Positions 1-18,100 of a stretch of 64,000 bases of DNA are shown in pieces. The first letter of the stretch is position 1, and every line of letters begins with the position of its first letter. The translations under genes and the position numbers were made by a program. This stretch comes from Granulicella sp. 5B5 (GTDB lineage Bacteria > Acidobacteriota > Terriglobia > Terriglobales > Acidobacteriaceae): NCBI RefSeq assembly GCF_014083945.1, contig NZ_CP046444.1, forward strand, positions 2,418,001 through 2,482,000, given 5' to 3'. Below the pieces are notes generated by a model. The model was not told the origin of the DNA and did no database searches. It saw only the letters and a list, made by a program, of their open reading frames with translations.

Positions 1-1361
1 ACGATGGGTACGAAGTACTCGGCGCGGTTGAGCTGGAAGTAGTTGATCTCCATGGCGACGGTGAGTTCGGTGATGGGGTCGTCGAGCATGAGGGCGTCTT
101 CGAGCTGACGCTCCTTGTCGGCGGTGTTGAACTTGGCGAACTCTTTGCCAGCGTAGTAGCCGAGGCGGTAGTCGAGCTTGGCGTCGGCGGGGTGTGAGAC
201 GGCGACGTGGATCTTGCGGAAGCGGCCGTCGAGGGCGGTGTTGGTGGTGTAGTACTCGATGAGGTAGTAGTCGGTGATGGCGTGCTGGGCCTGGAGGATG
301 CCGTGGCCGAGGTCGTTGTCGTCGAGCAGGGCCTTGCCGCCGGTGTCGCCGGCGAGGGAGAAGAGGGTGTCCTGCGATTGCTGGAAGTTGGAGGTATTGG
401 CGAGGGCGGCGGTGCCGGAGTACATGCCCTGGTTGCCGGGCGAGCCCTGGGTGGCGTCGCCGAGCGGGGCGCTGGCGACGAGGCCGCGCGCGTCGATGGG
501 CCAGAAGGAGACGCCGGCGCGGATGGCGGCGTCCACGGTGGCGTGGAGCTGGGCCTGGTTGTCGACACCGTTGAGACGGAGGCCGCTGGCGAAGTAGATG
601 AGCGCCTTCTTCTCATTGAGTGCGCCGAGCATGGTGGCGGCGGTCTGGAGCGCGGAGAGCTGGCGGTCGGTGTTGAAGACGTTGAACTCGCTGTCGTCCT
701 GGCCGAAGGCGGCGCCGGTGTCGGCACTGCTGGCGTCGTCGACTGAGTCGACGTTGCCCTGGCCTTCGCCGACGATCATGGTTTGCAGGATGCTGAGGAG
801 GCGGTTGCGGTCGCTGGAGAAGTCCTGCAGAACGTCGACGGAGCCGCCCTGGTAGCGGAGGATGGAGACGAGGTCGACGGGGGTCATCTGGGTGCGGATG
901 AACTTCTCGGCGGCTTCGAGGGCGCGGAGCTGGTCGCCGGGAGGCATGGCGCTCATGTCGAAGTAGAGAGCGAGCAGGCGGCGGTCTTTGTAGTGCGAGC
1001 TGTCGGCGGGTTCGGCCGCGAGCTGGGTGCGGGCGAGCTTGCGGTAGATGGTGATGTCTTCGTCCTCCGGCTTGGAGGGTGGCAGTGGCGTGGCCGTGGT
1101 GGGCAGGGTCTGGTGCTCGCAGTAGCGGATCTTTTGCGGGATGCCGTCTTCGGTGAGGGTGAAGTCGTTGGCGGTGAGGCCGTCGATGGAGTTGCCCTGC
1201 TTGTCTTTGACGGTGACGGCTTCGACGACGAGCTGCGAGTGGACGGAGAGCGTGTAGCCCTGCGTTGCGTTGGGGTCTTTGTTCTGGCCGATGGTCTGGG
1301 CATGCGCGGACGTGAAGATGGCGAGCGGTGCGAGAGCGGCGAAGAAGAGGGCAGATCGCAT
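1..1361 (-). CDS. VWFA-related acidobacterial protein (TIGR03436 type), 3' end outside window
   Basis: The reading frame starts with ATG at 1361 and stays open to the left edge, giving 453 visible residues; the C-terminus is missing. Residues 1-21 form a Sec signal peptide ending in AHA. Residues about 40-80 carry the family's entry segment (a strand followed by LTANDFTLTEDG), and a von Willebrand A fold follows. The metal site has D135 in the stretch FDMSAMPP, so the usual DxSxS is only partly kept (DMSAM), which I believe is common in this acidobacterial family. The ATG lies 2 nt after the stop of the upstream barrel gene, so the two are almost certainly co-transcribed and probably translationally coupled. 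The role is unknown; a secreted or periplasmic adhesion or scaffold protein is an inference. Confidence 0.85.
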   Translation of the reverse strand, partial: MRSALFFAALAPLAIFTSAHAQTIGQNKDPNATQGYTLSVHSQLVVEAVTVKDKQGNSIDGLTANDFTLTEDGIPQKIRYCEHQTLPTTATPLPPSKPEDEDITIYRKLARTQLAAEPADSSHYKDRRLLALYFDMSAMPPGDQLRALEAAEKFIRTQMTPVDLVSILRYQGGSVDVLQDFSSDRNRLLSILQTMIVGEGQGNVDSVDDASSADTGAAFGQDDSEFNVFNTDRQLSALQTAATMLGALNEKKALIYFASGLRLNGVDNQAQLHATVDAAIRAGVSFWPIDARGLVASAPLGDATQGSPGNQGMYSGTAALANTSNFQQSQDTLFSLAGDTGGKALLDDNDLGHGILQAQHAITDYYLIEYYTTNTALDGRFRKIHVAVSHPADAKLDYRLGYYAGKEFAKFNTADKERQLEDALMLDDPITELTVAMEINYFQLNRAEYFVPI

Positions 1362-1363
1362 GG

Positions 1364-4300
1364 TTAGAACCTCAGCCTTGCGGTGGTTTGGAGGCTGCGC
1401 ATGGGGCTGGTGGCAGCGGGGAGGCCGAAGACGGGGTTGTCCAAAGAAGGACTGATGGTGGTGTTGTAGCTGGTGAAGACGGCATGGTTGAGAAGATTGG
1501 TGGCGTTCACGCGAATATCAAGATTGTAGGTTTTGAAGATGCGGAAGGTGCGCGAGAGTGAGGCGTTGAAGCTGAACGATCCGGGGCCGGTGATGGAATC
1601 TCGACCGGCGTTTCCCCACTGGCCGGGCTGCGGCGCGGTGAAGGCCGCTGCGTTGAGGAAGTGGCCTGCGGTGCCGGTGTAGAGCGGTGCGGTGGTGCGG
1701 TCGGGGCGGAGGTTGCCGGTGACGCCGGTGCCGTTGGTGGCGGCGAGGTAGATGGGCGTCTCGGGCAGGCCGCTGCCAGCGGTGATCTGGCCGGCGAAGG
1801 TCCACTCCTTGTAGATGCGGCCACGCCAGCCGGAGAGCAGCGTGCCGCCGCCGAGGCCGGTGCCGGTGGAGTACTGGAAGCTGGTGGAGAGCAGGTGGCG
1901 CTGGTCAAAGGTGGAGCGGCCACGCTCGGCGCGGAGATCGAGCCAGTTCTGCGCGATGGCTGCTGTGGCGGCGCTTTGGCTGGTGGCGCCCGCGGCGACG
2001 GGCCCCTGGCCGCCGAGCGCGGAGTCGTCGTCGATGGACTTGGAGAAGGTGTAGAGAACTGAGGCGGAGAAGCCGCTGCGGAGACGGCGGCGGAGCTGGA
2101 AGCTGCCGGACTCGCGTGTGGAGTCGCCGTTGGAGGTGCGGTAGGTGAAGCCGGAGGGGCAGGATGGGCAGGGGTTCGCGCCGCCCACAGGGTAGGTGTT
2201 GGGGAGGAACTCCTGCACGCCGCGCGTGCCTTTGATGCCGAGGTAGGTGGCGGTCATCTGCAGAGCGAAGGGAAGATCGCGCTGTGCGGAGAGCTGCCAC
2301 GTTTGCGCGTAGCCGACGCGGAAGTTGGGATCGACGGCGAAGCTGTTGGGCGTGGTGGCGGTGCAGGGCTGGCGGACAAGGCCGCTGGAGAGCGAGAGCG
2401 GGCAGTTGGTGCTGTTCTGCGCGCTGAGAGTGTTGGTGGTGAGGGGCGGCTCCTCGGCGAGCTGCAGGGCAGTGGCCTGGTAGACGGAGGTGTCGGCGTA
2501 GATGCCGTAGCCGCCGCGGAGGACGAGCGATGAGCCGGGAATGGGACGCCAGGAGAGGCCGATGCGTGGCTCGACGTTGCGGCGGTCAGGGAGGATGAGT
2601 GAGGTGGGATAGTGCCTGCCAGTGAGTGGGCCGGTGGGTGCGCTGGCGAGTACAGGCTCGACGGCGGTGAAGTTGGGGGCGACGTCGAGGTTGACGAGGC
2701 GGTCCTTGAGCTCGGTGATGGGCGCGCCATACTCCCAGCGGACGCCGACGTCGATGGTGAACTCGGGGCGGAGACGCCAGTCGTCGGTGATGTAGGCGTC
2801 GTAGACGGACTGACGAAGATATTTGTCGGCGTTGCCGTAGTTGATGGAGGCGGTGTCGGGTGTGCCGGCGGCGAAGTCGCTGAAGTCCGAGCCAGTAGCA
2901 GTGCCGGTGAAGGTGAAGGTACCGCGCGGGTCCTGCTGCGAGAAGTAGTTGAACTCCTGACGGCGGAAGTCGATGCCGGCGGTGATGTTGTGGCGACCGC
3001 GATAGTAGTGGACCGAGGGCGAGACGGCGTCGGTGCGGTTGCGGTTGAAGGCGCTCTGCGCGTCAGTGAGTGTGGCAATGCCGCTGGAGAAGACGAGTGT
3101 GGGCGGGCCCCAGTTGACGGGTGAACTATCCACGCCGGCAATGCCGGCGGGCCCGGCGCCGCCTTCGATGTCCTGGCGGTTTTCGAAGTTAGGAGTGATA
3201 AGCGTGCGCACGCGGCTGAAGTTGAAGCCAAGCGTGGCGAAAAGGCCTGCGTTGAAGCGGTGCTGCCAGTTGGCGTTGAGGTTCATGCCGAGCGCGCCGG
3301 TCTGGTCGCGGAAGCCGAAGAGGCTGGTGTTGTCGGAACGGGTGCTCTGGAAGGCGAAGTTGCCGTAGAGGTCGTCGCGGCGGCCGATGGATTTTTCGAG
3401 GCGCGACTGGAGGGCGTCCTGATGGGCGTGGGCGACGACGGGCGTCTGGTAGTTGTAGCTGGCGCTGGAGGAGTTGGGTTCTGGATAGAGCGCGAGCAGC
3501 GCCTGGGCGATGGGGTCGATGGGGACGGTACTGCGTTGCGCGAGCGTGGGGACGAGCGAGGTCTCGTTGGTGGCGGTGTTGCTGCGCGTCCACTGATAGG
3601 CGACGAAGAAATTGGGCCCGCGTGGAAGGACGTGCGGGATACGGATGGGACCGCCGAGCGTGGCGACGCCCGTGATGGTGTTGTAGGCAGATTTGGGGCT
3701 GTCGAGGCCGCTGAGAGAGTAGGGGCGAGCGTCGAGCGCGGAGTTGTCGTAGATGACACCGATGCCACCGTTGTAGAGGCTCCGGGTGCCTTTGCGCGTG
3801 TTGCCGAAGCCCTGCGCGAGCGTGAACTGCGAGGTGGCGGCGTTGTTGACGGTGCCGTTGACGAGGAAGCCGTCGTTGGATGGCGGAGGCTCCTCGGCGG
3901 GTCTGGGGGCTTCGGGTTCGTTACCGGCTGGTTTGGCTGCGGACTTGGGAACGGCTGTGGGCTCGGCTTCGGCCATCACGCCGAGCTGCGCAGGCGCGAT
4001 TACTTTTGCTTTGGCGAGGACCTGCGGAAGCGGCAGCATCTTGAGGTCCCAGCGGATGCCGGGCATGTTCGGGGTTATGGTGATCGACTGCTGAATGGGC
4101 TCAAAGAGCGGCATCTCGATGTCGATCTTCCAGGAGCCATCGGCGAGGTCGGGGAAGGCGTAGCTACCGTCGGCGTTGGTGACGGTAGAGAGTTTTTGTG
4201 TGCCGTGGGTGACGGTGACGGTCGCACCGGGGACGGGCAGGTTGTTGAAGGCGACTTGGCCGTGGTGCTCCGAGGCATGGGCGATGGCGGCGATGGCGAA

Positions 4301-4366
4301 GCACGCGAGGGCGCAGAGCCAGCGTGTGCAGCGGTGCTTTCGTCGGAATGAGGGCATGGTGGCCAT
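1364..4366 (-). CDS. Carboxypeptidase-regulatory-like / TonB-type outer-membrane barrel protein
   Basis: This 1000-residue protein has a signal peptide (about 1-31), a carboxypeptidase-D-like regulatory beta-sandwich (about 33-110, with the NADGSYAFPDL hallmark), a proline/alanine-rich linker (about 140-165), a plug-like segment with FLVNGTVNN near 170-300, and a long stretch of alternating strands. It ends in LRF; a terminal aromatic residue is the usual outer-membrane insertion signal. Acidobacteria carry many such proteins, thought to import or bind oligosaccharides or other polymers, but the substrate cannot be read here. The start lies 6 nt after the TIGR03435 gene at 4373 and the stop 2 nt before the VWFA gene, so it sits inside an operon. 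A second in-frame Met is at residue 4. No clear TonB box was recognised. Confidence 0.88.
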   Translation of the reverse strand: MATMPSFRRKHRCTRWLCALACFAIAAIAHASEHHGQVAFNNLPVPGATVTVTHGTQKLSTVTNADGSYAFPDLADGSWKIDIEMPLFEPIQQSITITPNMPGIRWDLKMLPLPQVLAKAKVIAPAQLGVMAEAEPTAVPKSAAKPAGNEPEAPRPAEEPPPSNDGFLVNGTVNNAATSQFTLAQGFGNTRKGTRSLYNGGIGVIYDNSALDARPYSLSGLDSPKSAYNTITGVATLGGPIRIPHVLPRGPNFFVAYQWTRSNTATNETSLVPTLAQRSTVPIDPIAQALLALYPEPNSSSASYNYQTPVVAHAHQDALQSRLEKSIGRRDDLYGNFAFQSTRSDNTSLFGFRDQTGALGMNLNANWQHRFNAGLFATLGFNFSRVRTLITPNFENRQDIEGGAGPAGIAGVDSSPVNWGPPTLVFSSGIATLTDAQSAFNRNRTDAVSPSVHYYRGRHNITAGIDFRRQEFNYFSQQDPRGTFTFTGTATGSDFSDFAAGTPDTASINYGNADKYLRQSVYDAYITDDWRLRPEFTIDVGVRWEYGAPITELKDRLVNLDVAPNFTAVEPVLASAPTGPLTGRHYPTSLILPDRRNVEPRIGLSWRPIPGSSLVLRGGYGIYADTSVYQATALQLAEEPPLTTNTLSAQNSTNCPLSLSSGLVRQPCTATTPNSFAVDPNFRVGYAQTWQLSAQRDLPFALQMTATYLGIKGTRGVQEFLPNTYPVGGANPCPSCPSGFTYRTSNGDSTRESGSFQLRRRLRSGFSASVLYTFSKSIDDDSALGGQGPVAAGATSQSAATAAIAQNWLDLRAERGRSTFDQRHLLSTSFQYSTGTGLGGGTLLSGWRGRIYKEWTFAGQITAGSGLPETPIYLAATNGTGVTGNLRPDRTTAPLYTGTAGHFLNAAAFTAPQPGQWGNAGRDSITGPGSFSFNASLSRTFRIFKTYNLDIRVNATNLLNHAVFTSYNTTISPSLDNPVFGLPAATSPMRSLQTTARLRF

Positions 4367-4372
4367 CCGTGG

Positions 4373-5218
4373 TCAGTTCTCCGAGGGCATCTCGACGTGG
4401 TCGATGACGAAGGTTTCGATGGAAGCTTTGGAGGGTTTGAGCTCGAGCCCGAGCTGTTCTTTGAGGGCTGTGAAGATGTCGGGCGGGGCGTCGGAGTCGG
4501 TGGAGGGCGGAGCGTCGTCGCGTGCCCATTTGAGCTGCAGGTTGTACTTGCCGGTGAGGCCGGTCTTGTCGATGACGACGCGCTGCAGCTGGCTGGGGAG
4601 GTAATCGACCAGTGTGGAAACAGGAACGCCGGTCGCGGTGAGGCTGCCGTTCCGCACGCTGAAGCCGCCGGCCTTTACGCCGTTCACGCCGGTGTCGCTT
4701 GTTGACTCGGCGGCGGTGGTGGCGCTGAACTTTGGACCGCCTTTGGTGATGACGAGATCGTAGATCGGTTCGATCTTCCAATCGCGATGGAACTTCAGCT
4801 GGAAACGGTCGGTCAGAATGGGCTGCAGCATGGAGCGGCTTTGCGCCCGTGTGAGGGACTTTAGCAGCTTCTTATCGGGAGCGATGATCTTGGCGCGGAT
4901 GTCGAAACGTGCCGAGTCATTCCATTTGGGAAGGCCGGAGAGCTGCGACTCCTTGAGACTGTAGGCTTCGAGGATGAGTGTCTTGAGGGAGATATTTGCC
5001 GCGTCGAAGTTACCATCGCCGATGGAGACGTTGACGCTGCCGCTGCCGGTGTTGTTGGGTTTGATCGAGACGACGTCGTAGGCGGGTACCTTTGTATCCG
5101 GGACGGGGGACTGCGCCGCGATGCGCGGCTGGTGGAGGGCAGCGGCGGCCATCGCGAGGAGGAGCGCGATGCTCTCAGCATACCTTGCAGGCGGACTGTG
5201 GGCCGGTTGCGCGCGCAT
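4373..5218 (-). CDS. TIGR03435 family soil-associated protein (copy 3 of 3)
   Basis: The 281-residue protein has an N-terminal hydrophobic export segment (about 15-35) and then the family pattern: YDVVSIKPNN near the mature N-terminus, DRFQLKFH in the middle, VIDKTGLTGKYNLQLKW, and a closing VIDHVEMPSEN. TIGR03435 is a family of unknown function found in very high copy number in soil Acidobacteria; only export is supported. It is the third of three tandem copies and is followed after 6 nt by the barrel gene. A 71-nt gap separates it from the preceding copy. The copies share motifs but differ clearly elsewhere, so this looks like an old tandem expansion and not a recent duplication. Confidence 0.88.
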   Translation of the reverse strand: MRAQPAHSPPARYAESIALLLAMAAAALHQPRIAAQSPVPDTKVPAYDVVSIKPNNTGSGSVNVSIGDGNFDAANISLKTLILEAYSLKESQLSGLPKWNDSARFDIRAKIIAPDKKLLKSLTRAQSRSMLQPILTDRFQLKFHRDWKIEPIYDLVITKGGPKFSATTAAESTSDTGVNGVKAGGFSVRNGSLTATGVPVSTLVDYLPSQLQRVVIDKTGLTGKYNLQLKWARDDAPPSTDSDAPPDIFTALKEQLGLELKPSKASIETFVIDHVEMPSEN

Positions 5219-5289
5219 AGAAACAGGCGGTCCTTAGTCGTTGGGATAAGAGTCAGACGTAGCGGGTGCGGCAGGGTTTCAGGCGTGCG

Positions 5290-6150
5290 CTAATTTTCTG
5301 AAGGCTTTTCAGCCTGATCGATAACGAGAGTGTCGACGGGACCTTTGGTGGATTGGAGCTTGAGGCCGAGCTGCTCCTGCACGGCTGTGAAGATGGAGAC
5401 ACCGGCGTCGTCGGAGGCGGCGGGTGGGCCGGATTCGTCGGAGCGCCACTTGAGCTCGAAGTCGAAGTCGCCGGTGAGACCGGTCTTGTCGATGACGGGG
5501 TAGTGGAGGACATACGAGAGCTGGTTGGCGATGGTCTTCATGGGAATGCCTTGTCCCTGGAGCGTGCCTGGGCCCATCATCATCCTGCCGGGCCTGCGAG
5601 CTGCCACAGGGTCTTTCGCGGCGTCAGGTGGCGGGGTGAAGGGCGCTGAGGGTTTGAGTTTAGAGCCACCCTTGGCGAGGACGAGGTCGTACTCAGGGAG
5701 GACCTTGGTTTCGTGATGGAGCTTGAGGTGGAAACGATCAGCGAGCAGAGGCTGTAGGAGAGACTCGCGCTGGCGCTGGGTGAGCTTCTTGTAAGCTTCG
5801 AGGTCCTGCCCAGCGACCTTGGCCTGGACATCGAAGCCGGAGGAGTCGACCCAGGAAGGGCCGCCGGTGATCTGGTCCTGCCGGATGCCGTAGGCGTTGC
5901 CGATGAGAGTCTTCAAGGAGATGTTGTTGCAGCTGAAGCCGTCGGGCGTGTTCATGATGCGCATCCCGCGGGCGCTGGGGTCGCTCGGCTTGACGGAGGC
6001 GATATCGTAGACAGGCAGGTTGACGTCCGTCGTGGCCGCCGGCGTAGAGAGGTCGGAGACGGGAATCGGGGGAGCCTGCGCGTGGATCCCATGCAATGGG
6101 ACGGTAAGGAGGGCGGCCAACAGCAGGGTGCGCGCGGAGTTGTGGATCAT
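5290..6150 (-). CDS. TIGR03435 family soil-associated protein (copy 2 of 3)
   Basis: The 286-residue protein has a signal peptide (about 1-24, ending GIHA), then YDIASVKPSDP, the segment DRFHLKLHHETKVLPEYDL, VIDKTGLTGDFDFELKW, and the family ending VIDQAEKPSEN. It starts 19 nt after the stop of copy 1, so the two are probably in one transcript. Function is unknown. A short proline/arginine-rich loop (about 175-200: PFTPPPDAAKD and ARRPGRMMMGPG) is not obvious in the other two copies. Confidence 0.88.
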   Translation of the reverse strand: MIHNSARTLLLAALLTVPLHGIHAQAPPIPVSDLSTPAATTDVNLPVYDIASVKPSDPSARGMRIMNTPDGFSCNNISLKTLIGNAYGIRQDQITGGPSWVDSSGFDVQAKVAGQDLEAYKKLTQRQRESLLQPLLADRFHLKLHHETKVLPEYDLVLAKGGSKLKPSAPFTPPPDAAKDPVAARRPGRMMMGPGTLQGQGIPMKTIANQLSYVLHYPVIDKTGLTGDFDFELKWRSDESGPPAASDDAGVSIFTAVQEQLGLKLQSTKGPVDTLVIDQAEKPSEN

Positions 6151-6169
6151 GGTGCGAATCCTTTACGCG

Positions 6170-7303
6170 TTAGTTGGCCGAGGGCTTTTCAACGTGGTCG
6201 AGGGCGATGACCTCGACCGAAGTTTTTTCGGAGCTTAACTTGAGGCCGAGCTGCTGCTGCATGGCTTCGGTGAGGCTGGGTGCGGGCTCGACGCCATCGG
6301 CGAGCTTGCCGACGGGAGAGTGACCGTTGAACTGCGTCTCGTCGGGAAGGAAGGTGAGAGTGAAGTCGTACTTGCCCTTGAGGCCGGTTTTGTCGACAAC
6401 GGGGCGGTCGAGCACGAGCGACTGGAGGAAGCCGGTGAACTCCGGGATGGCGGCGTTGCGGACCATGAGTGTAAGGCCGCCGGTGGCAGGGCGCATGCCA
6501 ATGCCGGGCAGCGGGCCAGTGAGTTGTGTGGGGGCGAGCTTTGAGCCGGTCTTGTCGACGCTGAGGATGAAGGCGGAGAGCTCGCGTGTGTCCTTGTGGA
6601 ACTTGAGCTGGAAGCGGTCGGTGAGGAGCTTGCGGATCATGCTGCGGACCTGCTCGGGGTTGGGCGCGCCGTCGACGTCGGGGACGGCGTCAATGTCGTA
6701 GCGGTCGCTGCTCATCCAGGAGGGGCCGCCGATGATCTGCTTGGCCTGGACCTGGTAGGAGAAGGCGATGAGGTCTTCGAGGGATGAGGCGCGGGTGCGG
6801 AAGTTGCGGCCGTTGACGGTGAGGCCGCGCATGCTGGTGGCGCCGGAGTCGTTGGGCTTGATGGTGGCGACCTCGAAGGAGGGGTTGGCGTCAGCGGGCA
6901 TGAGCTTGGGCGGCGGAGGCGGCGCGGGGATCTCCCATGCGGTGGTCTTGGTGGCGCGGGCGAGGACGAGAGGGGTCGGGGTTGGGCCCTGTGTCCAGGT
7001 GCCGGTGATGGTGTTGCCGTCAGCGCTGAGCTTGCCTTCGTAGGTGCCACCGATGAGATCGACGGAGCACTTGAAGTCGGAGCCGTCGAGGGAGATGGAC
7101 GATGCCTTGATGGGCTGCGCTCCCTGGTCGATGCTGTACATTGTGCCTTTTAGGGCGCCGTTGTCTTTGGCGATGACCAGGATGATGCGGAGGTCTTTCT
7201 GCACCTTGAGAGTGCCTTGCCAGTTGCCGGTGATGTCCTGCGCATGGAGCACGGAGCCGAGCAGTGCAAGGCAGGCGACGAGACAGAGCATGAACCTTTT
7301 CAT
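6170..7303 (-). CDS. TIGR03435 family protein with N-terminal beta-rich extension (copy 1 of 3)
   Basis: This is the longest of the three copies, 377 residues. A signal peptide (1-21, ending LHA) is followed by a beta-rich module (about 22-125, starting ITGNWQGTLKV and including GNTITGTWTQG) that looks lipocalin- or DUF-like and is absent from the other copies. A proline-rich linker (APPPPPK) leads into the TIGR03435 domain (about 140-377) with FEVATIKPND, LLTDRFQLKFHKD, VVDKTGLKGKYDF and the terminal ALDHVEKPSAN. It is the first gene of the minus-strand run to position 1. A GGGAGA Shine-Dalgarno-like stretch lies about 9 nt before the ATG. Confidence 0.88.
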   Translation of the reverse strand: MKRFMLCLVACLALLGSVLHAQDITGNWQGTLKVQKDLRIILVIAKDNGALKGTMYSIDQGAQPIKASSISLDGSDFKCSVDLIGGTYEGKLSADGNTITGTWTQGPTPTPLVLARATKTTAWEIPAPPPPPKLMPADANPSFEVATIKPNDSGATSMRGLTVNGRNFRTRASSLEDLIAFSYQVQAKQIIGGPSWMSSDRYDIDAVPDVDGAPNPEQVRSMIRKLLTDRFQLKFHKDTRELSAFILSVDKTGSKLAPTQLTGPLPGIGMRPATGGLTLMVRNAAIPEFTGFLQSLVLDRPVVDKTGLKGKYDFTLTFLPDETQFNGHSPVGKLADGVEPAPSLTEAMQQQLGLKLSSEKTSVEVIALDHVEKPSAN

Positions 7304-7553
7304 CGGAGAGTCTCCCAGGGTGCTGCAGAGTCATTTACTGCGGAAGCGGCCCGAAACCGGGGCGGCGCATGAGATTTTGGTGGTCCTGGTGCGGTTGGAC
7401 AAGAGTGCTGATTCGAAGGTTAGCAGGTGGCGGCGATTTTTCATGCATACGAATTAGGTGCCTGATTTGTTCCCGTGCCTTGTGAAGGGCCTGTGCTGCG
7501 AGCGGAATGTTAAGCTCGGGCGCTATAGTGGCAGGGACAAGGCGGATGCGTTG
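7304..7553. other. Divergent intergenic region
   Basis: This 250-bp spacer separates the divergent TIGR03435 run (minus) and the TPR gene (plus) and should hold both promoters. A TATAGT hexamer at 7524-7529 could be a -10 box for the plus gene, but no good -35 box lies 16-18 bp upstream. No repeat, terminator or operator of note was seen. Confidence 0.4.
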
Positions 7554-8996
7554 ATGTTGGTTAAAGCGAGGAATTTGCTGCGTAAAGAGAGGTGGCTCGG
7601 AGCAGTTGCTGTGGCTGTTCTGTGCGCCGGTGTGGCTGGCGGGCAGCAGCCGACGGTGCAGGTTCGGGGGACGGTGAAGGACGCGAAGGGCGCTGCGGTG
7701 ACGGGTGCAGCTGTGCGGCTGCGGGAGGCTGCGGGTGTGGATGTCCAAGCTATTACGGATGGGGCGGGCAGGTTTGTGCTGCCGGCAGTGGCGCAGGGTG
7801 ATGCTTCGGTGACGGCTTCGGCGCGAGGGATGGAAGCACGCGCAGATGTGTCGGCGGCGAAGCTGGTGGAGCCGATGGTGCTGGTGCTGCGGCCAGCTGG
7901 GAATTCTGTGGGCGAGATGGAGTTCAGCGATGCTCCGAAGTTTTCAGTGGCGGGCGTGACGGACTGGACGGCGGTGGGTGGGCATGGGTCGGATGCGACG
8001 CTGCGGACGAGCGAATCGCTGGCGAGTGCGACGGCGAGTTTGCCGGGTGATGGTGCGGGTGCGGCGACTCCGGATGAGATGAAGGTTGCGGCTGAGGTCC
8101 GCGAAGATGAGGACCGCGGTGAGGTCGCGAAGGCGCAGGAGCGGGTGCATGCTGCGCTGCAGGCCCATGCGACAGCGAACCTGTATCGGCTGGCTGGCGA
8201 GGTGGATGAGAAGGGTGACGATCCGCTGGCGGCGGTGCGTGAGTTTGAGCAGGCGGCGAAGCTGGAGCCGAGCGAGGTGAACGAGTTTGAGTGGGGCTCG
8301 GAGCTGCTGGTGCATCGTGCGATATGGCAGGCGGCGGCGGTGTTTGAGCATGGGGCGGAGATGTATCCGGCTTCGGTGCGGATGCAGACGGCGCTGGGGA
8401 CGGCGCTATTTGCGGGTGCGCGGTATGAACAGGCGGCGGAGCGGTTGTGCAAGGCCTCAGACCTTGCGCCGGAGGATGCGGAGCCTTACGAGTTTATGGG
8501 GAAGGTGGAGCTTGCAGCGCCGGAGGCGCTGGCATGCGTGGAGCCGCATTTGGCGCGCTATGTGCGGCTAAAGCCGGGGAGCTCCGAGGCGCATTATTTG
8601 TATGCGATGGCGCTATTGAGGCGGCAGGAGAGTGCTCCGGATGCAGCTGCGGTTGCACAGGCTGAGGCGCTGCTGAAGAAGGCTGTCGCGCTGGATGCGA
8701 AGTGTGGCGATGGGTACCTGGAGCTGGGCGTGCTTGCGGCGCAGCGGAAGGATCTGCCGACGGCGATTGGGTACTACTCGAAGGCGATTGATGCGGACCC
8801 GATGATGGCGGATGCTTACTATCGGCTGGCGAAGGCGTACGAGCGCACGGGGCAGCGCGAGAAGGCGAAGGAAGCGTTCGCCATGCATGACAAGGTGACG
8901 CAGGAACAGGCGGCAGCGACGGAGCGACAACGCAAGGCGGTGAAGCAGTTTCTGTTTGCGAAGCCGGGTGATGCGCCGACAGTTGCTACGCCTTAG
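7554..8996 (+). CDS. Secreted TPR protein with carboxypeptidase-regulatory-like domain
   Basis: I chose the ATG at 7554 (480 residues) because it places a Sec signal peptide (about 1-27, ending AGG-QQ) at the N-terminus and has AAGGCGG upstream; the frame is open further upstream to 7458. Residues about 28-110 form a carboxypeptidase-regulatory-like sandwich (VRGTVKDAKGAAVTGAAV). A linker follows, then TPR helices (about 175-460), including ATANLYRLAGEVDEKGDD and DGYLELGVLAAQRKDL. The C-terminal half resembles the protein at 19048 in length and wording (EWGSELLVHR against DWGSELLLHR; both end in a KQFLF/QQFVY segment), so the two are probably paralogues. Its stop overlaps the converging CRTAC1 gene by 11 bp. 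A role in periplasmic protein assembly at this envelope locus is an inference. Confidence 0.85.
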   Translation: MLVKARNLLRKERWLGAVAVAVLCAGVAGGQQPTVQVRGTVKDAKGAAVTGAAVRLREAAGVDVQAITDGAGRFVLPAVAQGDASVTASARGMEARADVSAAKLVEPMVLVLRPAGNSVGEMEFSDAPKFSVAGVTDWTAVGGHGSDATLRTSESLASATASLPGDGAGAATPDEMKVAAEVREDEDRGEVAKAQERVHAALQAHATANLYRLAGEVDEKGDDPLAAVREFEQAAKLEPSEVNEFEWGSELLVHRAIWQAAAVFEHGAEMYPASVRMQTALGTALFAGARYEQAAERLCKASDLAPEDAEPYEFMGKVELAAPEALACVEPHLARYVRLKPGSSEAHYLYAMALLRRQESAPDAAAVAQAEALLKKAVALDAKCGDGYLELGVLAAQRKDLPTAIGYYSKAIDADPMMADAYYRLAKAYERTGQREKAKEAFAMHDKVTQEQAAATERQRKAVKQFLFAKPGDAPTVATP

Positions 8997-10773
8997 TGCT
9001 GGGTTTGTCGGACTTGATGATGCCTTCGCCTTCGCGGATGGTGAGGATCTGATTGGCCTTGATGTGGGGGAAGTGCTCGAGTTTTTGCGTAGTGGGCCAC
9101 TTTATTTCGATCATGTCGACGGTGTCGGCTTTGCCGAGCCCGAAGTGCAGGCGCAGATCGTTCTGTGACATGACGCTGCCGCCGCTGGCGACCTCGTCCA
9201 TTTGAATGTGTTTGCCGGTGATGACACGGACGCGCGCGCCGATGGCGGTGCGGTTGCAGTGCGTGCCGATGAGCTTGATTTTGATCCAGTTCTGCTTGTT
9301 GCTGCCGCCTTCATTGCGAAGTAATGAGGGTGGGTCGTTGAGGTTGAGGACGAGGGCGTCCATGCAGCCGTTGTTGTTGTAGTCGCCGAAGGCTGCGCCG
9401 CGGCTGGAGAAGCGCTCGCTGATGCCGGGGCCGAGCTCGGCGGAGACGTCTTTGAAGCGGCCGTTGCCGAGGTTACGGTAGGCGATGCGGGGGTTCTTGT
9501 AGGTCTCACCGAAGTTGTAGCGGTCTACTTCGGGATAGACGTGTCCGTTGACCTGGATGAGGTCGGCCCAGCCGTCGTTGTCGAAGTCGAGGAAGCCGCA
9601 ACCCCAGGCGACGTAGCGATTGTTGACGCCGACGCCGGAGGGCGCGGAGACGTCCGTGAATGTGCCGTCGCCGTTGTTGTGGTAGAGGTTGCAGGTGTCG
9701 TCGACGAAGTTGGTTTTGAAGATGTCGAAGAAGCCATCGCAGTCGTAGTCGGCGACGGCGACGCCCATGCCTGCCTGCTCGTGGCCGTCTTCGTTGTAGG
9801 CGCAGCCGGCCATGACGGCTATGTCGGTGAATGTGCCGTCGTGGTTGTTCTTGAAGAGGACGCTGGGCATGGAGTCGACGGCGATGTAGATGTCGGGCCA
9901 GCCATCGTTGTCGAAGTCGTAGGAGACGGAGGTGATGGAGTAGCGTGGGCCGGGCGCGAGGATGCCGGACTTTGCGGAGACGTCGGTGAATGTGCCGTCG
10001 CCGTTGTTGTGGTAGAGGATGTTGGTGTCGGGCGGGAGGCCGCGTGGGCCGCAGAGAATGGGCACGCCCTTCCACTGGCAGTAGTGGGTTTCGTTGGCGG
10101 GCGGGATCTTGTCGGGGTCGATCTTGATGTAGTTGCAGACGAAGAGATCGAGGTGGCCGTCGCGGTCGTAGTCGAGGAAGCTGCAGCCCGCGCCCCAGCG
10201 GCCCTGCTCCTGATAGAGGCCGGCTTTGCGGGTGACATCAGTGAATGTGCCGTTGCCGTTGTTGTGGAGGAGGCGGTTGTGGCCGAGGAAGCAGCAGAAG
10301 AGATCGTCGAAGCCGTCGTTGTTGTAGTCGCCGACGCAGACGCCGGTTTGCCAGCCGGTGATGCCGAGGCCGGAGTGTTCGGTGACGTCGGTGAATGTGC
10401 CGTCGCGATTGTTTTTGAAGAGATGCGAGGTGGGCGCTTTGCCGGCAGGCCAAGTGGTGTCGAGACGGTTGCCGTTGGTGAGGTAGATGTCGAGCCAGCC
10501 GTCGTTGTCGAAGTCAAAGAAGGCGAGGCCTGAGCCCTTGGTTTCGATGATGGAGCGCTTGTGGTCGATGCCGCCCCAGACGTTGGTGACGTTGAGGCCG
10601 GCGGTTTGAGCAACATCGACGAAGCGGATGCCGAGGTTGCCGGGCTTTGTCTCGACGGCTTCGACGGTGAGCGGATGCTTCCAGCGCCAGAGTGGCGTGG
10701 CGAGGGCGTCGGTGAGTGCCCCGCCGAGGAGGACGAGAGAGGAACCGAGGAAGCGACGGCGAGGGGTGATCAT
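8986..10773 (-). CDS. Tat-exported CRTAC1 family protein (FG-GAP/VCBS propeller with ASPIC/UnbV domain)
   Basis: The 595-residue protein begins MITPRRRFLGSSLVLLGGAL, a twin-arginine signal, implying export in folded form. Residues about 45-490 contain repeated FG-GAP/VCBS blades with calcium-loop motifs such as DFDNDGWLDIYL, DYNNDGFDDLFC and DYDRDGHLDLFV, each paired with a GTFTDVT strand. The C-terminal about 500-580 is the ASPIC/UnbV domain (NRTAIGARVRV, HFGLGKAD). Such proteins form calcium-stabilised beta-propellers and often accompany TonB-type barrels; a substrate-binding or cofactor-loading role is unproven. Its 3' end overlaps the converging TPR gene by 11 bp, with no room for a terminator, so antisense transcription between the two is likely. 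Confidence 0.92.
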   Translation of the reverse strand: MITPRRRFLGSSLVLLGGALTDALATPLWRWKHPLTVEAVETKPGNLGIRFVDVAQTAGLNVTNVWGGIDHKRSIIETKGSGLAFFDFDNDGWLDIYLTNGNRLDTTWPAGKAPTSHLFKNNRDGTFTDVTEHSGLGITGWQTGVCVGDYNNDGFDDLFCCFLGHNRLLHNNGNGTFTDVTRKAGLYQEQGRWGAGCSFLDYDRDGHLDLFVCNYIKIDPDKIPPANETHYCQWKGVPILCGPRGLPPDTNILYHNNGDGTFTDVSAKSGILAPGPRYSITSVSYDFDNDGWPDIYIAVDSMPSVLFKNNHDGTFTDIAVMAGCAYNEDGHEQAGMGVAVADYDCDGFFDIFKTNFVDDTCNLYHNNGDGTFTDVSAPSGVGVNNRYVAWGCGFLDFDNDGWADLIQVNGHVYPEVDRYNFGETYKNPRIAYRNLGNGRFKDVSAELGPGISERFSSRGAAFGDYNNNGCMDALVLNLNDPPSLLRNEGGSNKQNWIKIKLIGTHCNRTAIGARVRVITGKHIQMDEVASGGSVMSQNDLRLHFGLGKADTVDMIEIKWPTTQKLEHFPHIKANQILTIREGEGIIKSDKPSTKA

Positions 10774-10851: not shown

Positions 10852-13800
10852 TCATTGCAGTGTGTCCAGGGCTTTGAGCGCGACGGCGTTTTGCGGCTGG
10901 TGCTGGAGGAGGCTTTGCAAGGCAGCGCGGGCGCGCGCCTTGTCACCCTGCATGGCGTAGAGGCGCGCAAGGTTGAGGTAGGCCTGGTCGTTGTCAGGTG
11001 CGCGCTCGATGCCGGTTTTGAACTGCTGCTCGGCGAGGTCGAATTGCTGGAGACGCACGTAGATGATGCCGAGGTTGTTGAGTGCTTCCGGATAGATGGG
11101 GCGAAGCACGATGGCCTGCTGGAGATAGCCGGCGGCGGTCTGGAGCTGATTCTGCTGGGCGTAGAGCATGCCGAGGCTGTAGTGGACCTCGGCATCGTCG
11201 GCCTGCAGGGCGAGCGCACGCTTGAGGGCGGACTCAGCCTGTGGGTATGCTCCGGCGCGACGGTAGACGTTGCCTAGATTGAGGAGCGCGATCTCGTAGT
11301 CGGGGCGCAGTTCGAGTGCCTGCTGGAAGTTTTGTACGGCCTCTTCTGCGTGGCCCTGTTGCGCGGCCATCATGCCGAGGTTGTTCCAGGCCTCAGGGTA
11401 GTTGGAGCGCAGCTTGAGGGCGTGGTTGAGGTATTCACGTGCCTGGTCGAAGTTGTTGCGGCGGAGGTTGAGCGTGCCGAGGTTGTAGTAGGCCTCGGGG
11501 TCGCTGGGACGGGTGGCGACGACCTGTTGGAAGGAGGACTCGGCCTGCTCGTAGTAGCCGTGCTGGAAGAGGGCGACACCGTAGGTGAAGTCGTTGCGCT
11601 GGAGCGTGCTCTGATAGAGGCGCCCTTTGAAGGGCAGAGCGCGTTCGATGCGCTGCTGCGGCGTGGTGGGAGCCGTGGCGACGTCGTGGAGGATGCGATC
11701 GGCGGAGATGGAGCCCTGGTAGACCTTGACGATCTGGCCTTCCTTGTCGAGGAGGAAGGCGGTGGGGAAGGCGAGGTCGCGGCGTCGGTCGAAGAGGTAG
11801 CGATAGATGATGTTGTAGATACCGCCGACTTCGGGTGTGCCGAGGAGCACGGGGAAGGCGAGGCCAGACTGTTTGGCGAAGGAGCGGACGGCGTCGGATT
11901 GTGCGGGTTCGTCGAGACTGAGAGCGATGAGTTGGAGCGATGCGTTGTGGAGCTGCGCGTGGTTGCGTTGCAGGTGAGCGAGCTGTGCCGTGGACGCCGG
12001 TGATGTTGTGGCGAAGAGATGTAAGAGAACGTAGCTGCCGAGTGAGTCCTGGAGGTGATGTGTTGTGCCGGTTGTGTCAGAGAGTGAGAATGCGGGAGCC
12101 TTGAGGGGCGTAATGAGCCAGGTGTCGACGTCGGCGGGCAGGGACTCGCGTGGTGCAGGTGGGCCGGGCTGTTGGTAGAGCTGGGGCGGTGCAACGAATG
12201 GCTTGGATGTGAAGGTGGCGAGGCCTTCTTCGAGCTCGATGCGCTGGTTGATGGGGAGAGCTTCAAAGGTTTGGGCGAGGCCGCTGGGCCAATGGATTGT
12301 GGCAGTGAGTGGGCCTTCGAATATTCCTACGCCGAAGAAGAGCTCTTTGGAGTGCTGGCCGAGAAAGCCGGTGCCGGCCTGAAGATATTTGGTCTGCTTG
12401 AGTGAACCTGCCTGGAGCGTGATGGACGTGCCGATGGCGTCGCGATTGCTCTTGTGGCCACGGAGGCGGAAGCAGACGGAGTGGCCGATCTCGGTGAGGT
12501 TGTTGCGGAGGATGCGGAGTTGCGGGGCGTTGCGGTTCTTGAGAAGAAGCTCCAGGCGGCCGTCGTGGTCGATGTCGGCCAGAGCGAAGGAGCGGCTGTC
12601 TTCGAGACAGTCGAGGCCGACCACGGAGGAGACCTCGGCGAAGGTGCCGTCGCCGTTGTTGGCGAACATTACGTTGCGTTGGTAGGCGTTCCAGGAGTTG
12701 TCGGCGCGGACGAGCTCGTTGATGGCGTTCCAGCCGTGCTCGTAAGCGAGGCGCGGGGAGGCGTCGTCGGGAGAGTTGGCGACGATCTGCCGCCAGAAGA
12801 AGCTGCCGATGTCGGTGAGGTCGGCGGCGGAGATGTAGCCATTGGTGACGTAGAGATCGGAGAAGCCGTCGTGGTCGAAGTCCCAGGCGTCGGCGGCCCA
12901 GGACCAGTGGGCCATGGCGGTGTTGGACTCCGCGCCGCCATTGTGGAAGGTGCCATTGCCGAGGTTGCGGTAGAGAGCGTTACCGAGGGCTTGTCGCTGA
13001 TAGGTGGAGCGGACCTCCTCGGTGGCATCGGGGTGAAACTGCTTCTGGTGGGAGACACGCTGGCCGGCGGCTTCCCACATGCTTGAGATGTAGATGTCCT
13101 GATGGCCGTCGTTGTCGAAGTCGGCCCAGCAGGCGCTCATGCCGGCGGCTGCGTCTTCGACGTGCGACTGCTGCGAGATGTGCTGAAAGGTTCCGTTGCC
13201 GTTGTTGCGATAGAGCTGCGACTTGCCGAAGTCGTTGGCGATGCAGAGGTCGGGCGCGCCGTTGCCGTTGGAGTCGCCCCAAGCGCAGGCGAAGCTGTAG
13301 CGGTTGTTCTCGACGTTGAGGCCTGCGGCCTGCGTGGTCTCGACGAAGCGGCCGTTGCCTTCGTTGTGGAGCAGGCAGTTCTGTGGGCCGTTGCGGGCGT
13401 CGTAGTAGGGCACGGGGTAGTGGTACTGGTCGAGGCCGAGGTAGTACTGATAGGTGCAGAAGTAGATGTCGAGGCGGCCGTCGTTGTCGTAGTCGGCGAG
13501 GGCGGCGTGCGTGAAGGTGCCGTTGGGCGGGGCAGCGAACTGGAAGGCATCGTGCTTGAGAGCGAAGGTGCCGTCGCCGTTGTTGCGGAAGAGCAGCGGG
13601 CCGCTGCCGCAGACGACGAGGAGATCTTGCAGGCCGCGGTTGTCGAAGTCCGCGAAGAGGGCGCAGGCGGTGTTGTCGAGGACATCGACGCCGGCGTGAG
13701 CGGAGACATCTTCAAAGGTGCCGTCGCCGCGGTTGCGGTAGAGGCGGTTGGGCAGGCCGGCGGGTTGACAGACGTAGATGTCGTCGAGGCCGTCGTTGTT

Positions 13801-14688
13801 GTAGTCGCCGGCCGTGATGCCGTTGTTGGCGTAGATGTCGATGCCACAAGCACCGTCGAGCACGGTGCGCCAGTGATCGACGCCGTGTTGCAGCTGATCT
13901 GTATAGGAGCTGTTGCCCGCGAGGGCGTGCGCTGTGATGTCGATGAAGGAAGAGGGCTCGCCGATGCTGAGACGTTCGCTGAGGGCTTGCCAGCGGTGGA
14001 TGGTCCACGCGGGCGGGGTTGTCTGGCTGCAGAGGAGCTGCCAGCCGCCGACGCGTTCTTCCCGGCGACGGTCATGACGTGTGCCTGCGATGTTGTAGCG
14101 CATCTCAATCTGCACGGTGAGCGGGGAGGTGGAGGCGACGTCGATGGCGTAGATTTCGAACTCTGCAACGGTGATGGCCGAGAGCGGGTCGAGCCAGTTG
14201 GTGATCTCCTTGAGGAAGGCTGCGGACGTGGTGCTGGCGGCGGGTGCGAAGCTGCGTTGCGAGACATGGATGCCTGCGCGATCGCGGAGGACGACCTCGT
14301 GTGCAGGTATCAGAGAAGAGGCCTCGAAGTGGTCTGACAGCAGCGCCAGGAGATGTTCGTGATTCGGAGAAACGGAAGTTAGTTTGCGGGCCCAGAGTGC
14401 GAAGAGAACGGCGATCTGGGAGGCGTAGCTCTCGGTGATGTACGAGTCCGAACCGGGAGGGACGAGGCGGAGGACATCGGCGAGCGAAGACGGCGAAGGA
14501 TAGTGAGGACGGTAGCGTGTGGTGTCACCGAAAAGCAAGGATTCATGGTGATTTTGCGTGCCCGCGGGCACGCGCAGAAGAGGACTGCCACAGAAAGGCG
14601 CCGCGCGAAGAGTGAAGGCTGTGGCACCTAAAGCGCGAAGAAGCTCACGTCTGGAGAGGAGCGTTTTGTGGGGGGAGCGATGTGGCAT
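10852..14688 (-). CDS. Tat-exported CRTAC1-redoxin-like-TPR fusion protein
   Basis: This is a fusion of about 1278 residues. From the ATG at 14688 it starts with a Tat signal (SRRELLRALGATAF); an in-frame ATG at 14709 would add 7 residues. An unassigned N-terminal region (to about 280) is followed by FG-GAP blades (about 290-770, with DYNNDGLDDIYV, DFDNDGHQDIYI and DFDHDGFSDLYV), an ASPIC/UnbV domain (about 770-850), a TlpA/redoxin-like domain (about 870-1005) and seven or so TPRs (about 1040-1278). The redoxin domain has FATTSPAS where TlpA-type proteins carry a CxxC-containing loop, so it cannot do dithiol chemistry in the usual way. A 78-bp gap separates it from the next CRTAC1 gene on the same strand. 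Its promoter must lie in the shared 14689-15134 region. Confidence 0.88.
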   Translation of the reverse strand: MPHRSPHKTLLSRRELLRALGATAFTLRAAPFCGSPLLRVPAGTQNHHESLLFGDTTRYRPHYPSPSSLADVLRLVPPGSDSYITESYASQIAVLFALWARKLTSVSPNHEHLLALLSDHFEASSLIPAHEVVLRDRAGIHVSQRSFAPAASTTSAAFLKEITNWLDPLSAITVAEFEIYAIDVASTSPLTVQIEMRYNIAGTRHDRRREERVGGWQLLCSQTTPPAWTIHRWQALSERLSIGEPSSFIDITAHALAGNSSYTDQLQHGVDHWRTVLDGACGIDIYANNGITAGDYNNDGLDDIYVCQPAGLPNRLYRNRGDGTFEDVSAHAGVDVLDNTACALFADFDNRGLQDLLVVCGSGPLLFRNNGDGTFALKHDAFQFAAPPNGTFTHAALADYDNDGRLDIYFCTYQYYLGLDQYHYPVPYYDARNGPQNCLLHNEGNGRFVETTQAAGLNVENNRYSFACAWGDSNGNGAPDLCIANDFGKSQLYRNNGNGTFQHISQQSHVEDAAAGMSACWADFDNDGHQDIYISSMWEAAGQRVSHQKQFHPDATEEVRSTYQRQALGNALYRNLGNGTFHNGGAESNTAMAHWSWAADAWDFDHDGFSDLYVTNGYISAADLTDIGSFFWRQIVANSPDDASPRLAYEHGWNAINELVRADNSWNAYQRNVMFANNGDGTFAEVSSVVGLDCLEDSRSFALADIDHDGRLELLLKNRNAPQLRILRNNLTEIGHSVCFRLRGHKSNRDAIGTSITLQAGSLKQTKYLQAGTGFLGQHSKELFFGVGIFEGPLTATIHWPSGLAQTFEALPINQRIELEEGLATFTSKPFVAPPQLYQQPGPPAPRESLPADVDTWLITPLKAPAFSLSDTTGTTHHLQDSLGSYVLLHLFATTSPASTAQLAHLQRNHAQLHNASLQLIALSLDEPAQSDAVRSFAKQSGLAFPVLLGTPEVGGIYNIIYRYLFDRRRDLAFPTAFLLDKEGQIVKVYQGSISADRILHDVATAPTTPQQRIERALPFKGRLYQSTLQRNDFTYGVALFQHGYYEQAESSFQQVVATRPSDPEAYYNLGTLNLRRNNFDQAREYLNHALKLRSNYPEAWNNLGMMAAQQGHAEEAVQNFQQALELRPDYEIALLNLGNVYRRAGAYPQAESALKRALALQADDAEVHYSLGMLYAQQNQLQTAAGYLQQAIVLRPIYPEALNNLGIIYVRLQQFDLAEQQFKTGIERAPDNDQAYLNLARLYAMQGDKARARAALQSLLQHQPQNAVALKALDTLQ

Positions 14689-14824
14689 GCAGATCCGAAG
14701 GGCGGGCATTGAGCGTCCGCAGAATACCACTCCGCTGTCAGCGTGGTGGAGAAGGGACAACATGCCGCGGAGTAGGTGTGCAGGTTGGATAGACAGCTTT
14801 TTGGTGTGTCCCAAATTTGAAGTA

Positions 14825-15134: not shown

Positions 15135-18100
15135 ATGAACCACGATCGCAATCCGATCACGCGCACATTGAAGCCAGCACGCTTTGCGCTGGCGTTTCTA
15201 TTTTTGTTAATGGCTACGGCCGGGTACGCGGGCGCACAGGTCGATGAAGGATCGATCGCCGGCACAGTTATGGACCCCACCGGCGCCGTCGTGCCCGGCG
15301 CTTCCGTAACCGTTACCAACACCGATGTCGGATTGAAGCTGCAGGGCACCACCAACAGCGCAGGCGAGTTCACCTTCTCTCCGGTCAGGATCGGACACTA
15401 CTCGGTCACCGCATCAGCGCCCGGTTTTCAGAAGACGACGCAGCAAAACTTGACCGTCAACATTGCAGAGCACCTGCAGGTTCCCATCCAGCTGAAGACG
15501 GGCGCGATCTCGGACACGATCGAAGTCACGACGGAGCCTCCGCAACTACAGACAGACGAGTCCTCGGTCGGCCAGGTGGTCACGGAAAAGACCGTCAACG
15601 ACCTGCCGCTGAACGGACGTAACTTCACGTTTCTTGCTCAACTGGGAGCCGGTACGCAGTCGGCAGAGGCCGATACACGCGGTAACTCGGCTTCCGGTGC
15701 GTTCTCCGCCAACGGGCTGCGGCCAGCGCAGAACAACTACCTGCTCGACGGCATCGATAACAACTCCAACGCGGTCGACTTCCTGAACGGCACCAACTTC
15801 ATCGTGCTGCCTCCGATTGACGCCATCGCCGAGTTCAAGGTGCAGACCTCGGACTACAGCGCCGACCTTGGGCGCGCAGCCGGTGCCGTACTCAACGCCT
15901 CCATCAAGTCCGGTACCAATAGCCTGCACGGCTCGGTCTGGGAGTTCTTCCGCAACGATGTGCTCGACGCTCGCGACTTCTTCGAGCCTGCCGGCCAAAA
16001 GAAGGCTGCGTTCCGCCAGAACCAGTTCGGCGCATCTATCGGCGGCCGCATCATCAAAGACAAGCTCTTCTTCTTCGGTGACTACGAAGGCCTGCGGCGT
16101 GTACAGGGCCAGACCACAACCGCCACTGTTCCTACACTGAATGAGATCAACAGCGGATACACAAACCTCGCGGACATCCTGAATGGACAGGCTGGAGCGA
16201 AACCGCAGGTCGACCTTCTCGGTCGCAGTATTCCGCTCGGCGCTGTTCTCGATCCCGCGACGACCCGACTTGTAAGCGCAGGTGTGCTCGATCAAACCTC
16301 AGGCATCGTCACCCCTCAACCCACCAGTGGGTCTGTGCCGGTGGGAACGCCCCTTGGCTACGTGCGCGATCCGTTCGCGGGCAATCAGATCCCAGCAGGC
16401 CGGATAGACCCGGTGGCCCTCAAGATTCTCTCGTTATTTCCGAAGCCGACGAACAGCCTCTACGCTTCCAACTTCGTCTCCAGTCCCGACCTGTATGAAC
16501 ATCGCAACGCCTTTGATGTTCGCGTCGACTACAATGCGAGCCAGAAGGACCAGGTCTTCGGCCGCTTCAGCTACGTCGACGATCCTCAGTACATTCCTGG
16601 TGTCTTCGGCGGCATTGCCGATGGCGGCGCCTTCCAGCAGGGCATCCAGACGGCGCACTCCAATCAGTCGGTCATAGGCTATACGCATGTCTTTACGCCA
16701 TCCACCATCAACGTGCTCCATGTCGGTTTCAACCACCTGCACACCACGCGCTACGGCCCTGAGGGTGGCGTCAACGGCATCCCTGCTCAGTACGGCATTC
16801 AGGGTATCCCGCAGTTCTCTGAGAATGGCGGCCTTCCCCAGATCAATTTTGGCGGCCTGTCGACGCTTGGCTCCAACTCGTACCTGCCGTCGGATGAGAC
16901 GAGCCAGACATTGCAGATTACCGATGACTTCACCAAGGTCTACAAGACCCACAGCTTCAAGGTGGGCATTGAATCGCAGCTCGTAAAGAACGATGTACTA
17001 CAGCCGCCGAATGCGAAAGGTGACTTCGACTACAACGGGACATACACTGACGTTCCGGCCCAGAACAGCAAAACCACCGGTCTGGCACAGTTCCTCATCG
17101 TGCCGGAGGTGGCGACCGTTCCCAATGGTTTCGACTACTCCGGTGGCTCGGATAACGTCCAGGCTTCAAACTCCAGCAAGACCGATGACTATCGCACCTA
17201 TCTTGCGGGTTATATCCAGGATGACTGGAAGGCAACTCCAAAGCTGACCTTCAACCTGGGCGTTCGCTACGACTACTTCTCGCCGATTCGAGAGACCAAT
17301 GGCGGCCAAGCGAACTTTGTACCCAACGGACCACTCAATAACGGCACTCCGACCTATCTCATCCCTGCGTCAGGTAAGGCGGATGCGAATGTTGCGTCGA
17401 CATATCCTGTGTTTGCCGCTTTGCTACAGACGGATGGAATTACGCTAGAGCAGACCGACAAGTATGGCCAGGGCCTCGTGCAGACTCAGAAGACCAATGT
17501 CTCGCCACGCATCGGTGTTTCATACCAGGCAAGCAACAAGCTTGTTCTCCGTGCGGGTTTTGGATACTTCTTCAACTCGTTTGAAAATCAAGGCTATGGC
17601 CCGAACATCGGCGAAAACTATCCCTTCCAGTTCCAGTTCAACTACTCGGGGCAGTCACCGCTAACAACCCCCGGTGCGTCGGGAGTTGCGCCGGTCAGCT
17701 ACAACACCGCGTACGCTGGCAATCCTACGTCGACCCCACCTATCCCACCTTGCGCCACGGCTGGCCCAGGGCAAACAGCGAGCATAGGCTCCGGCCTCTC
17801 CTGCTTCAGCTTCAATCCTGCCCTGGTCAACCCGGCGAATCTAGGTCTGCAAGGCCTCCAGTTCGACTACAAGACACCACGCACGCTCAGCACCAACTTC
17901 AGCGTGGAGTATGCTCTCACCCGCTCGCTCTCAGCTACCGTGGCGTATGTCTTTACGCAGGCCCAACATCTGCAGATCGGTATCGGCAGCAATAACGTAA
18001 CAGCCATCCTGCCAGCGAGTGCCAACACAAAGAACCCGGCTGCGCCCGGCACAGGCGGCACGGTTCCATTCGTCGATTTCGGCTCGGGCGCCAGCTACCA

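Follow-up and report, generated by a model that had tools for sequence, protein, structure and literature searches.

The window, a stretch of 64,000 nucleotides from the genome of Granulicella sp. 5B5, begins with five genes on the minus strand that lie head to tail with intergenic gaps of 19, 71, 6, and 2 nt, an arrangement claimed in an earlier note on this DNA and borne out by the positions of the open frames. The run is headed by T1 (6170 to 7303), which encodes an exported TIGR03435 protein of 377 aa whose N-terminal part contains a beta-rich module (residues 23-135; 6899 to 7237). Two further exported TIGR03435 proteins are encoded by T2 (5290 to 6150; 286 aa) and T3 (4373 to 5218; 281 aa) and, 6 nt beyond T3, there is a gene for an outer-membrane barrel protein of 1000 aa (1364 to 4366). 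The last gene encodes a VWFA protein of the TIGR03436 type, of which the N-terminal 453 of 714 aa are inside the window (1 to 1361) and a further 783 nt lie outside (full protein at L001:7217-9361). Sec-type signal sequences could be read directly at the start of all five proteins, and a crude scan exposed no terminator-like sites on the coding strand between the five genes. The intergenic region between T1 and a divergent gene at 7458 (7304 to 7457) is without the BlaI-type operator dyad, unlike that of the BlaI-bearing relatives described below; a BlaI operator at the T1 promoter had been a candidate and was rejected, the motif being absent there. The divergent gene upstream of the run (7458-8996) encodes a CarboxypepD_reg and TPR protein. 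Adjoining minus-strand genes encode large FG-GAP-type repeat proteins, one with FG-GAP and ASPIC/UnbV domains by Pfam (8986-10773) and the other of 1320 aa (10852-14814), FG-GAP- and TPR-like as judged by eye only.

T1, T2, and T3 are plain members of TIGR03435/DUF3738 (E-values of 6e-60, 3e-68, and 1e-60; 203-230 bits against a curated cut-off of 40), and they also matched PF12543 at 186-209 bits (cut-off 22). To our knowledge, no function has been assigned to this family, and our literature search, which had most subscription journals outside its scope, returned no paper naming TIGR03435, TIGR03436, or DUF3738. The predicted structure of T2 (pLDDT 86) comprises two successive beta-alpha-beta-beta-alpha-beta arrangements. 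Foldseek searches of the PDB with this model yielded no significant fold match, to a known sensor domain or otherwise (best E 0.72), and no solved relatives of TIGR03435 were found in the PDB by sequence. The beta-alpha-beta pattern had suggested STN/secretin N-domain repeats, an idea dropped on that best Foldseek E-value; an STN profile run over the organism's own genome returned nothing above cut-off. An internal repeat is seen at the level of secondary structure, while alignment of one half against the other with hhalign gave E-values of 0.004-0.013 and a probability of 3%.

The barrel protein carries CarboxypepD_reg and OMP_b-brl_4 domains by profile search. It had been called giant in the earlier note, which is wrong, as 1000 aa is short for a family in which most full-length frames of this genome have 1100-1400 aa. 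Following its signal peptide, the AlphaFold model (pLDDT 79; 33 sequences in the alignment) has an Ig-like CarboxypepD_reg domain at about residues 32-107, a disordered linker at 118-198 (3773 to 4015), and a barrel from residue 199 with roughly 22 strands, counting long strands. The fold is that of a TonB-dependent receptor, with YddB (6ofr) as the best Foldseek match (E 1e-19) and FusA and others weaker. However, a Pfam profile search of the 1000-aa protein found no Plug domain, and the linker, in which residues 118-195 have pLDDT <50, sits at the position expected for the plug of a TonB receptor. Because the predicted receptor fold comes with no recognisable plug, we do not class the protein as a TonB-dependent transporter. 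A small gating element may nevertheless form in the linker in its native state. Gly-rich or Pro/Ala-rich sequence occupies the linker position in sister barrel groups. Elsewhere in the window, on the plus strand (15135-18947), a 1270-aa barrel of the usual kind contrasts with the plug-less one: alignment shows it to have a plug-like region, and it matches Plug weakly at 19.7 bits, below the 23.9 cut-off.

The VWFA protein scored 225.6 bits against TIGR03436 (cut-off 81.25). Metal-binding VWA domains generally have an intact first MIDAS motif, DxSxS. In the window protein this motif reads FDMSAM and thus departs from DxSxS, and among the linked VWFA proteins it reads D-[ML]-[ST]-x-M, with the final Ser missing and Met in its place in 108/110. 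Judged from these motifs, the degenerate metal site would not help a role in metal-dependent adhesion and is compatible with scaffolding.

Close relatives of the barrel were detected in 113/399 genomes of the class, spanning 44/135 genera, and in seven genomes from other classes of the phylum. We fetched 116 barrel loci, including paralogues that were 35% identical, selecting them by barrel score and room on the contig when the neighbours were not yet known. Annotation used profiles of our own making for TIGR03435, VWFA, the barrel, the beta module, M56, and BlaI; domain assignments in relatives are from these profiles, with a Pfam spot check on about ten proteins. A VWFA gene of ~700 aa directly followed the barrel in 113 of the 116. 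In a tree of 114 barrels, a TIGR03435 run was directly upstream of 75 of the 82 members of a well-supported clade (clade A), as compared with 0 of 32 barrels elsewhere on the tree, among which is a second barrel-VWFA pair of the Granulicella genome itself. The tree was built with FastTree, has some weak branches, and is rooted by an outgroup on a long branch. TIGR03435 presence required 7 label changes on it, against a mean of 32.9 for shuffled labels, and the simplest reading of this pattern would be a single gain of the linkage followed by several losses. Thus, the linkage of TIGR03435, barrel, and TIGR03436 that had been predicted for other genomes holds strongly, and the gene order, an old one and far from being peculiar to one genome, recurs across genera. 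TIGR03435 was also present in 53/61 loci of a second collection, which partly draws on the same genomes and hence is not independent of the first, and in all eight loci fetched separately from other classes of the phylum. When the TIGR03435-negative exceptions were searched again at relaxed thresholds, most had none upstream, and L218 had one on the opposite strand.

The complete 3.93 Mb genome offers a comparison of its own: TIGR03435 is encoded by 13 genes in it, the barrel family by about 50, and TIGR03436 by some 17. Among these roughly 50 barrels, TIGR03435 adjoins only the one described here, and the remaining TIGR03435 genes are far from any such barrel. The second barrel-VWFA pair, at 2776384-2780076 (L002:7395-13268), lacks TIGR03435 and serves as a natural control; in its 1214-aa barrel, a Gly-rich linker replaces the plug. 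Such pairs are widespread in relatives. Neither a BlaI repressor nor an M56 protease was found in the window run, no M56-TIGR03435 fusion was found in the genome, and its two BlaI/M56 pairs are away from the run and without TIGR03435. A 647-aa protein of the same genome (L008:3474-5417) was initially guessed to be such a fusion, which the domain check ruled out: it has a C-terminal TIGR03435 domain, and its N-terminal ~400 aa have no Pfam match.

In 32 of the 75 TIGR03435 loci, the run includes a BlaR1-type M56 protease fused to a C-terminal TIGR03435 domain. Spot checks of these fusions returned Peptidase_M56 at E-values of 5e-36 to 5e-30, and the NCBI model blaR1_generic matched in part (E about 1e-25) over the first ~330 residues, after which TIGR03435 stands where the beta-lactam sensor would be. 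Full-length BlaR1/MecR1 models scored far below cut-off on the fusions, which on this measure do not have the beta-lactam sensor. HExxH was present in 32 of 34 fusions. TIGR03435 was located beyond the last hydrophobic segment, as is the sensor of BlaR1 in the signalling scheme described for that receptor (PMC7593790). A BlaI-type repressor (PF03965, E about 2e-23) was in the run of all 32 M56 loci and of none of the 43 TIGR03435-only loci; 30 of the 32 were recognized by a distance rule, and L126 and L178 by inspection, an intervening frame having broken the rule. Moreover, of 30 promoters preceding the BlaI gene, 21 contained GTAGTA/TACTAC (2.7 expected), as compared with 1/40 TIGR03435-only and 0/39 TIGR03435-free loci. 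Likewise enriched at the BlaI-gene promoters was TACANNTGTA (6/30, expected 0.04), which we take to be the half-site arrangement of BlaI/CopY operators. Repressor, protease, and operator occur together and are missing together, which is the strongest evidence for a working circuit in these relatives.

The beta module of T1 ties the window to these receptors. Its presence stands as first described, yet it is not peculiar to this locus, being shared with free proteins in the runs of relatives and with some M56 fusions; in L043, L044, and L047, it lies between M56 and TIGR03435 (best-domain E-values of 6e-36, 6e-37, and 7e-33). On the domain tree, T1 was placed inside a supported clade of 15 sequences that mixes free beta-TIGR03435 proteins with M56-beta-TIGR03435 proteins. 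Since both the module and the clade are shared with M56 fusions, T1 corresponds to the detached outer, extracytoplasmic portion of such a BlaR1-like receptor, minus the protease. Free and fused forms swapped often (19 changes), so that the receptor form may be either ancestral or derived.

Several known systems resemble parts of this arrangement. As in BlaI/BlaR1 and MecI/MecR1 (PMC7593790), the loci of relatives pair a Penicillinase_R repressor with an M56 protease that has HExxH and ends in an extracytoplasmic domain, and TACTACA/TGTAGTA-type sites lie upstream; their circuit would operate in the manner of BlaI-BlaR1. These loci differ in that the sensor is TIGR03435 rather than a class-D beta-lactamase-like domain, and in that the target encoded alongside consists of an outer-membrane barrel and VWFA. 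In contrast, the window locus, which has no repressor, protease, or operator, is not itself a BlaI-BlaR1 system. With TonB-dependent receptors and Oar-like CarboxypepD_reg barrels, the window barrel shares the CarboxypepD_reg domain and a TonB-receptor-fold barrel (PF25183), but a linker of some 80 disordered residues stands in place of its plug, and it is co-encoded with VWFA. SusCD-type pairs likewise combine a barrel with a dedicated, co-encoded exported partner; here, however, the partner is VWFA and not SusD, the barrel is plug-less, and no SusD or glycan genes were seen in the run. We found no literature on an acidobacterial BlaR1 link, again with most subscription journals outside the scope of the search, and M56-DUF3738 architectures may already be present in automatic annotation. 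TonB-receptor, CopY-type repressor, and VWFA paralogues are listed in the Solibacter paralogue paper (PMC3174227), in passages that make no mention of the window locus.

We read the run as one form of an envelope module that is conserved in Acidobacteriota. Its core, evident from conservation, pairs a TonB-receptor-like outer-membrane barrel that has no recognisable plug with a secreted VWFA protein encoded next to it, and an accessory layer of TIGR03435 proteins is encoded directly upstream in one barrel clade. TIGR03435 is confined to that clade and missing in 7 of its 82 members, and on this distribution we regard it as an accessory layer and not as an obligate subunit, with barrel and VWFA as the conserved core. 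That the linkage of TIGR03435 to the barrel module is functional we consider very probable. The occurrence of the M56-TIGR03435 fusion beside BlaI in 32 loci points first to sensing and regulation, and we give roughly even chances to TIGR03435 being a periplasmic sensor or partner domain of a channel module that, in many relatives, is coupled to BlaI-BlaR1 control. TIGR03435 would then act in the periplasm as an extracytoplasmic sensing or binding domain for a ligand or for a component of the module. In relatives, where it would serve as the sensor at the C-terminus of an M56 receptor of the BlaR1 type, binding would lead to cleavage of BlaI by M56, and the inactivation of BlaI would derepress the operon, including the barrel and VWFA genes. 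In the Granulicella genome, T1 to T3 would be sensor-type domains that stand free and are produced along with the barrel, most likely as its periplasmic ligand-binding or gating partners; this genome appears to have kept the sensors without a protease, repressor, or operator at the locus, and the signalling part of the reading is extrapolated from the relatives. We infer the ligand, the signalling, the transcription of the run as an operon, and the binding of TIGR03435 to the barrel. Tentatively, one might go further and see in TIGR03435 an unrecognised extracytoplasmic sensor fold on BlaR1-type proteases, whose free copies gate or report on a plug-less, VWFA-paired channel in an antibiotic-independent BlaI-BlaR1 circuit. 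Any particular ligand or gating role for TIGR03435 is rather doubtful.

The tight gene order, the pairing of barrel and VWFA in 113 of 116 loci, and the signal peptides on all proteins would also suit a stable envelope complex of the kind inferred in the earlier note, with the TIGR03435 proteins serving the barrel as structural subunits, VWFA as the scaffold, and any BlaI control secondary; moreover, a plug-less pore would need closing by something. We nevertheless think this unlikely, given that TIGR03435 is missing at all 32 barrels outside clade A and at the 7 exceptions within it, that its copy number varies from 1 to 5 per locus, that the M56 fusions are membrane-anchored, and that the metal site of VWFA is degenerate. 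Export of TIGR03435 and/or VWFA through the barrel, with the cargo encoded beside the pore in a two-partner-like manner, is improbable: in many loci TIGR03435 belongs to an inner-membrane M56 protein, which excludes it as cargo, some barrel-VWFA pairs have no TIGR03435, and most TIGR03435 genes of the genome have no nearby barrel, even though the lack of a recognisable plug, the variable number of exported proteins encoded upstream, and the scarcity of lipobox-like signals (6 of 116 free TIGR03435 copies) are what a secretion module would predict.

Alternatively, an expanding paralogous family could have come to lie beside the barrel by insertion or duplication with no functional link, as might be supposed from the 13 copies of TIGR03435 in the genome and from the domain tree, where locus copies are interspersed with copies from other loci. 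Retention at 75 of 82 clade-A barrels, spread over numerous genera and beyond a single class, on the same strand and with very short gaps, makes such hitchhiking highly improbable, as does the absence of TIGR03435 beside 32 related barrels of the same taxa. The sensor or partner reading, by tying TIGR03435 to a BlaR1-type protease, to BlaI and its operator, and to one outer-membrane channel, makes testable claims of sensing and derepression for a family that is multi-copy in Acidobacteriota and of unknown function, and would extend BlaI-BlaR1 signalling beyond beta-lactams. The conserved locus itself identifies a large barrel clade that is TonB-receptor-like, plug-less, and accompanied by a dedicated VWFA partner. 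If true, the sensor-fold version would give a first clue to the function of a soil-bacterial family with many duplicates.

Finally, we noted several loci of unusual composition. The short clade-A barrels of L163 and L164 (about 880 aa) are no longer accompanied by either TIGR03435 or VWFA. L255, titled as an Acidimicrobiia MAG, has the full BlaI-M56-TIGR03435-barrel arrangement; it is probably misbinned, and would otherwise represent transfer to another phylum. In L048, a beta-module TIGR03435 gene (L048:6038-7255) faces the end of the VWFA gene in convergent orientation, such that TIGR03435 genes are also found on the far side of the operon, and a 537-aa protein (L048:14855-16468) has two tandem TIGR03435 domains.
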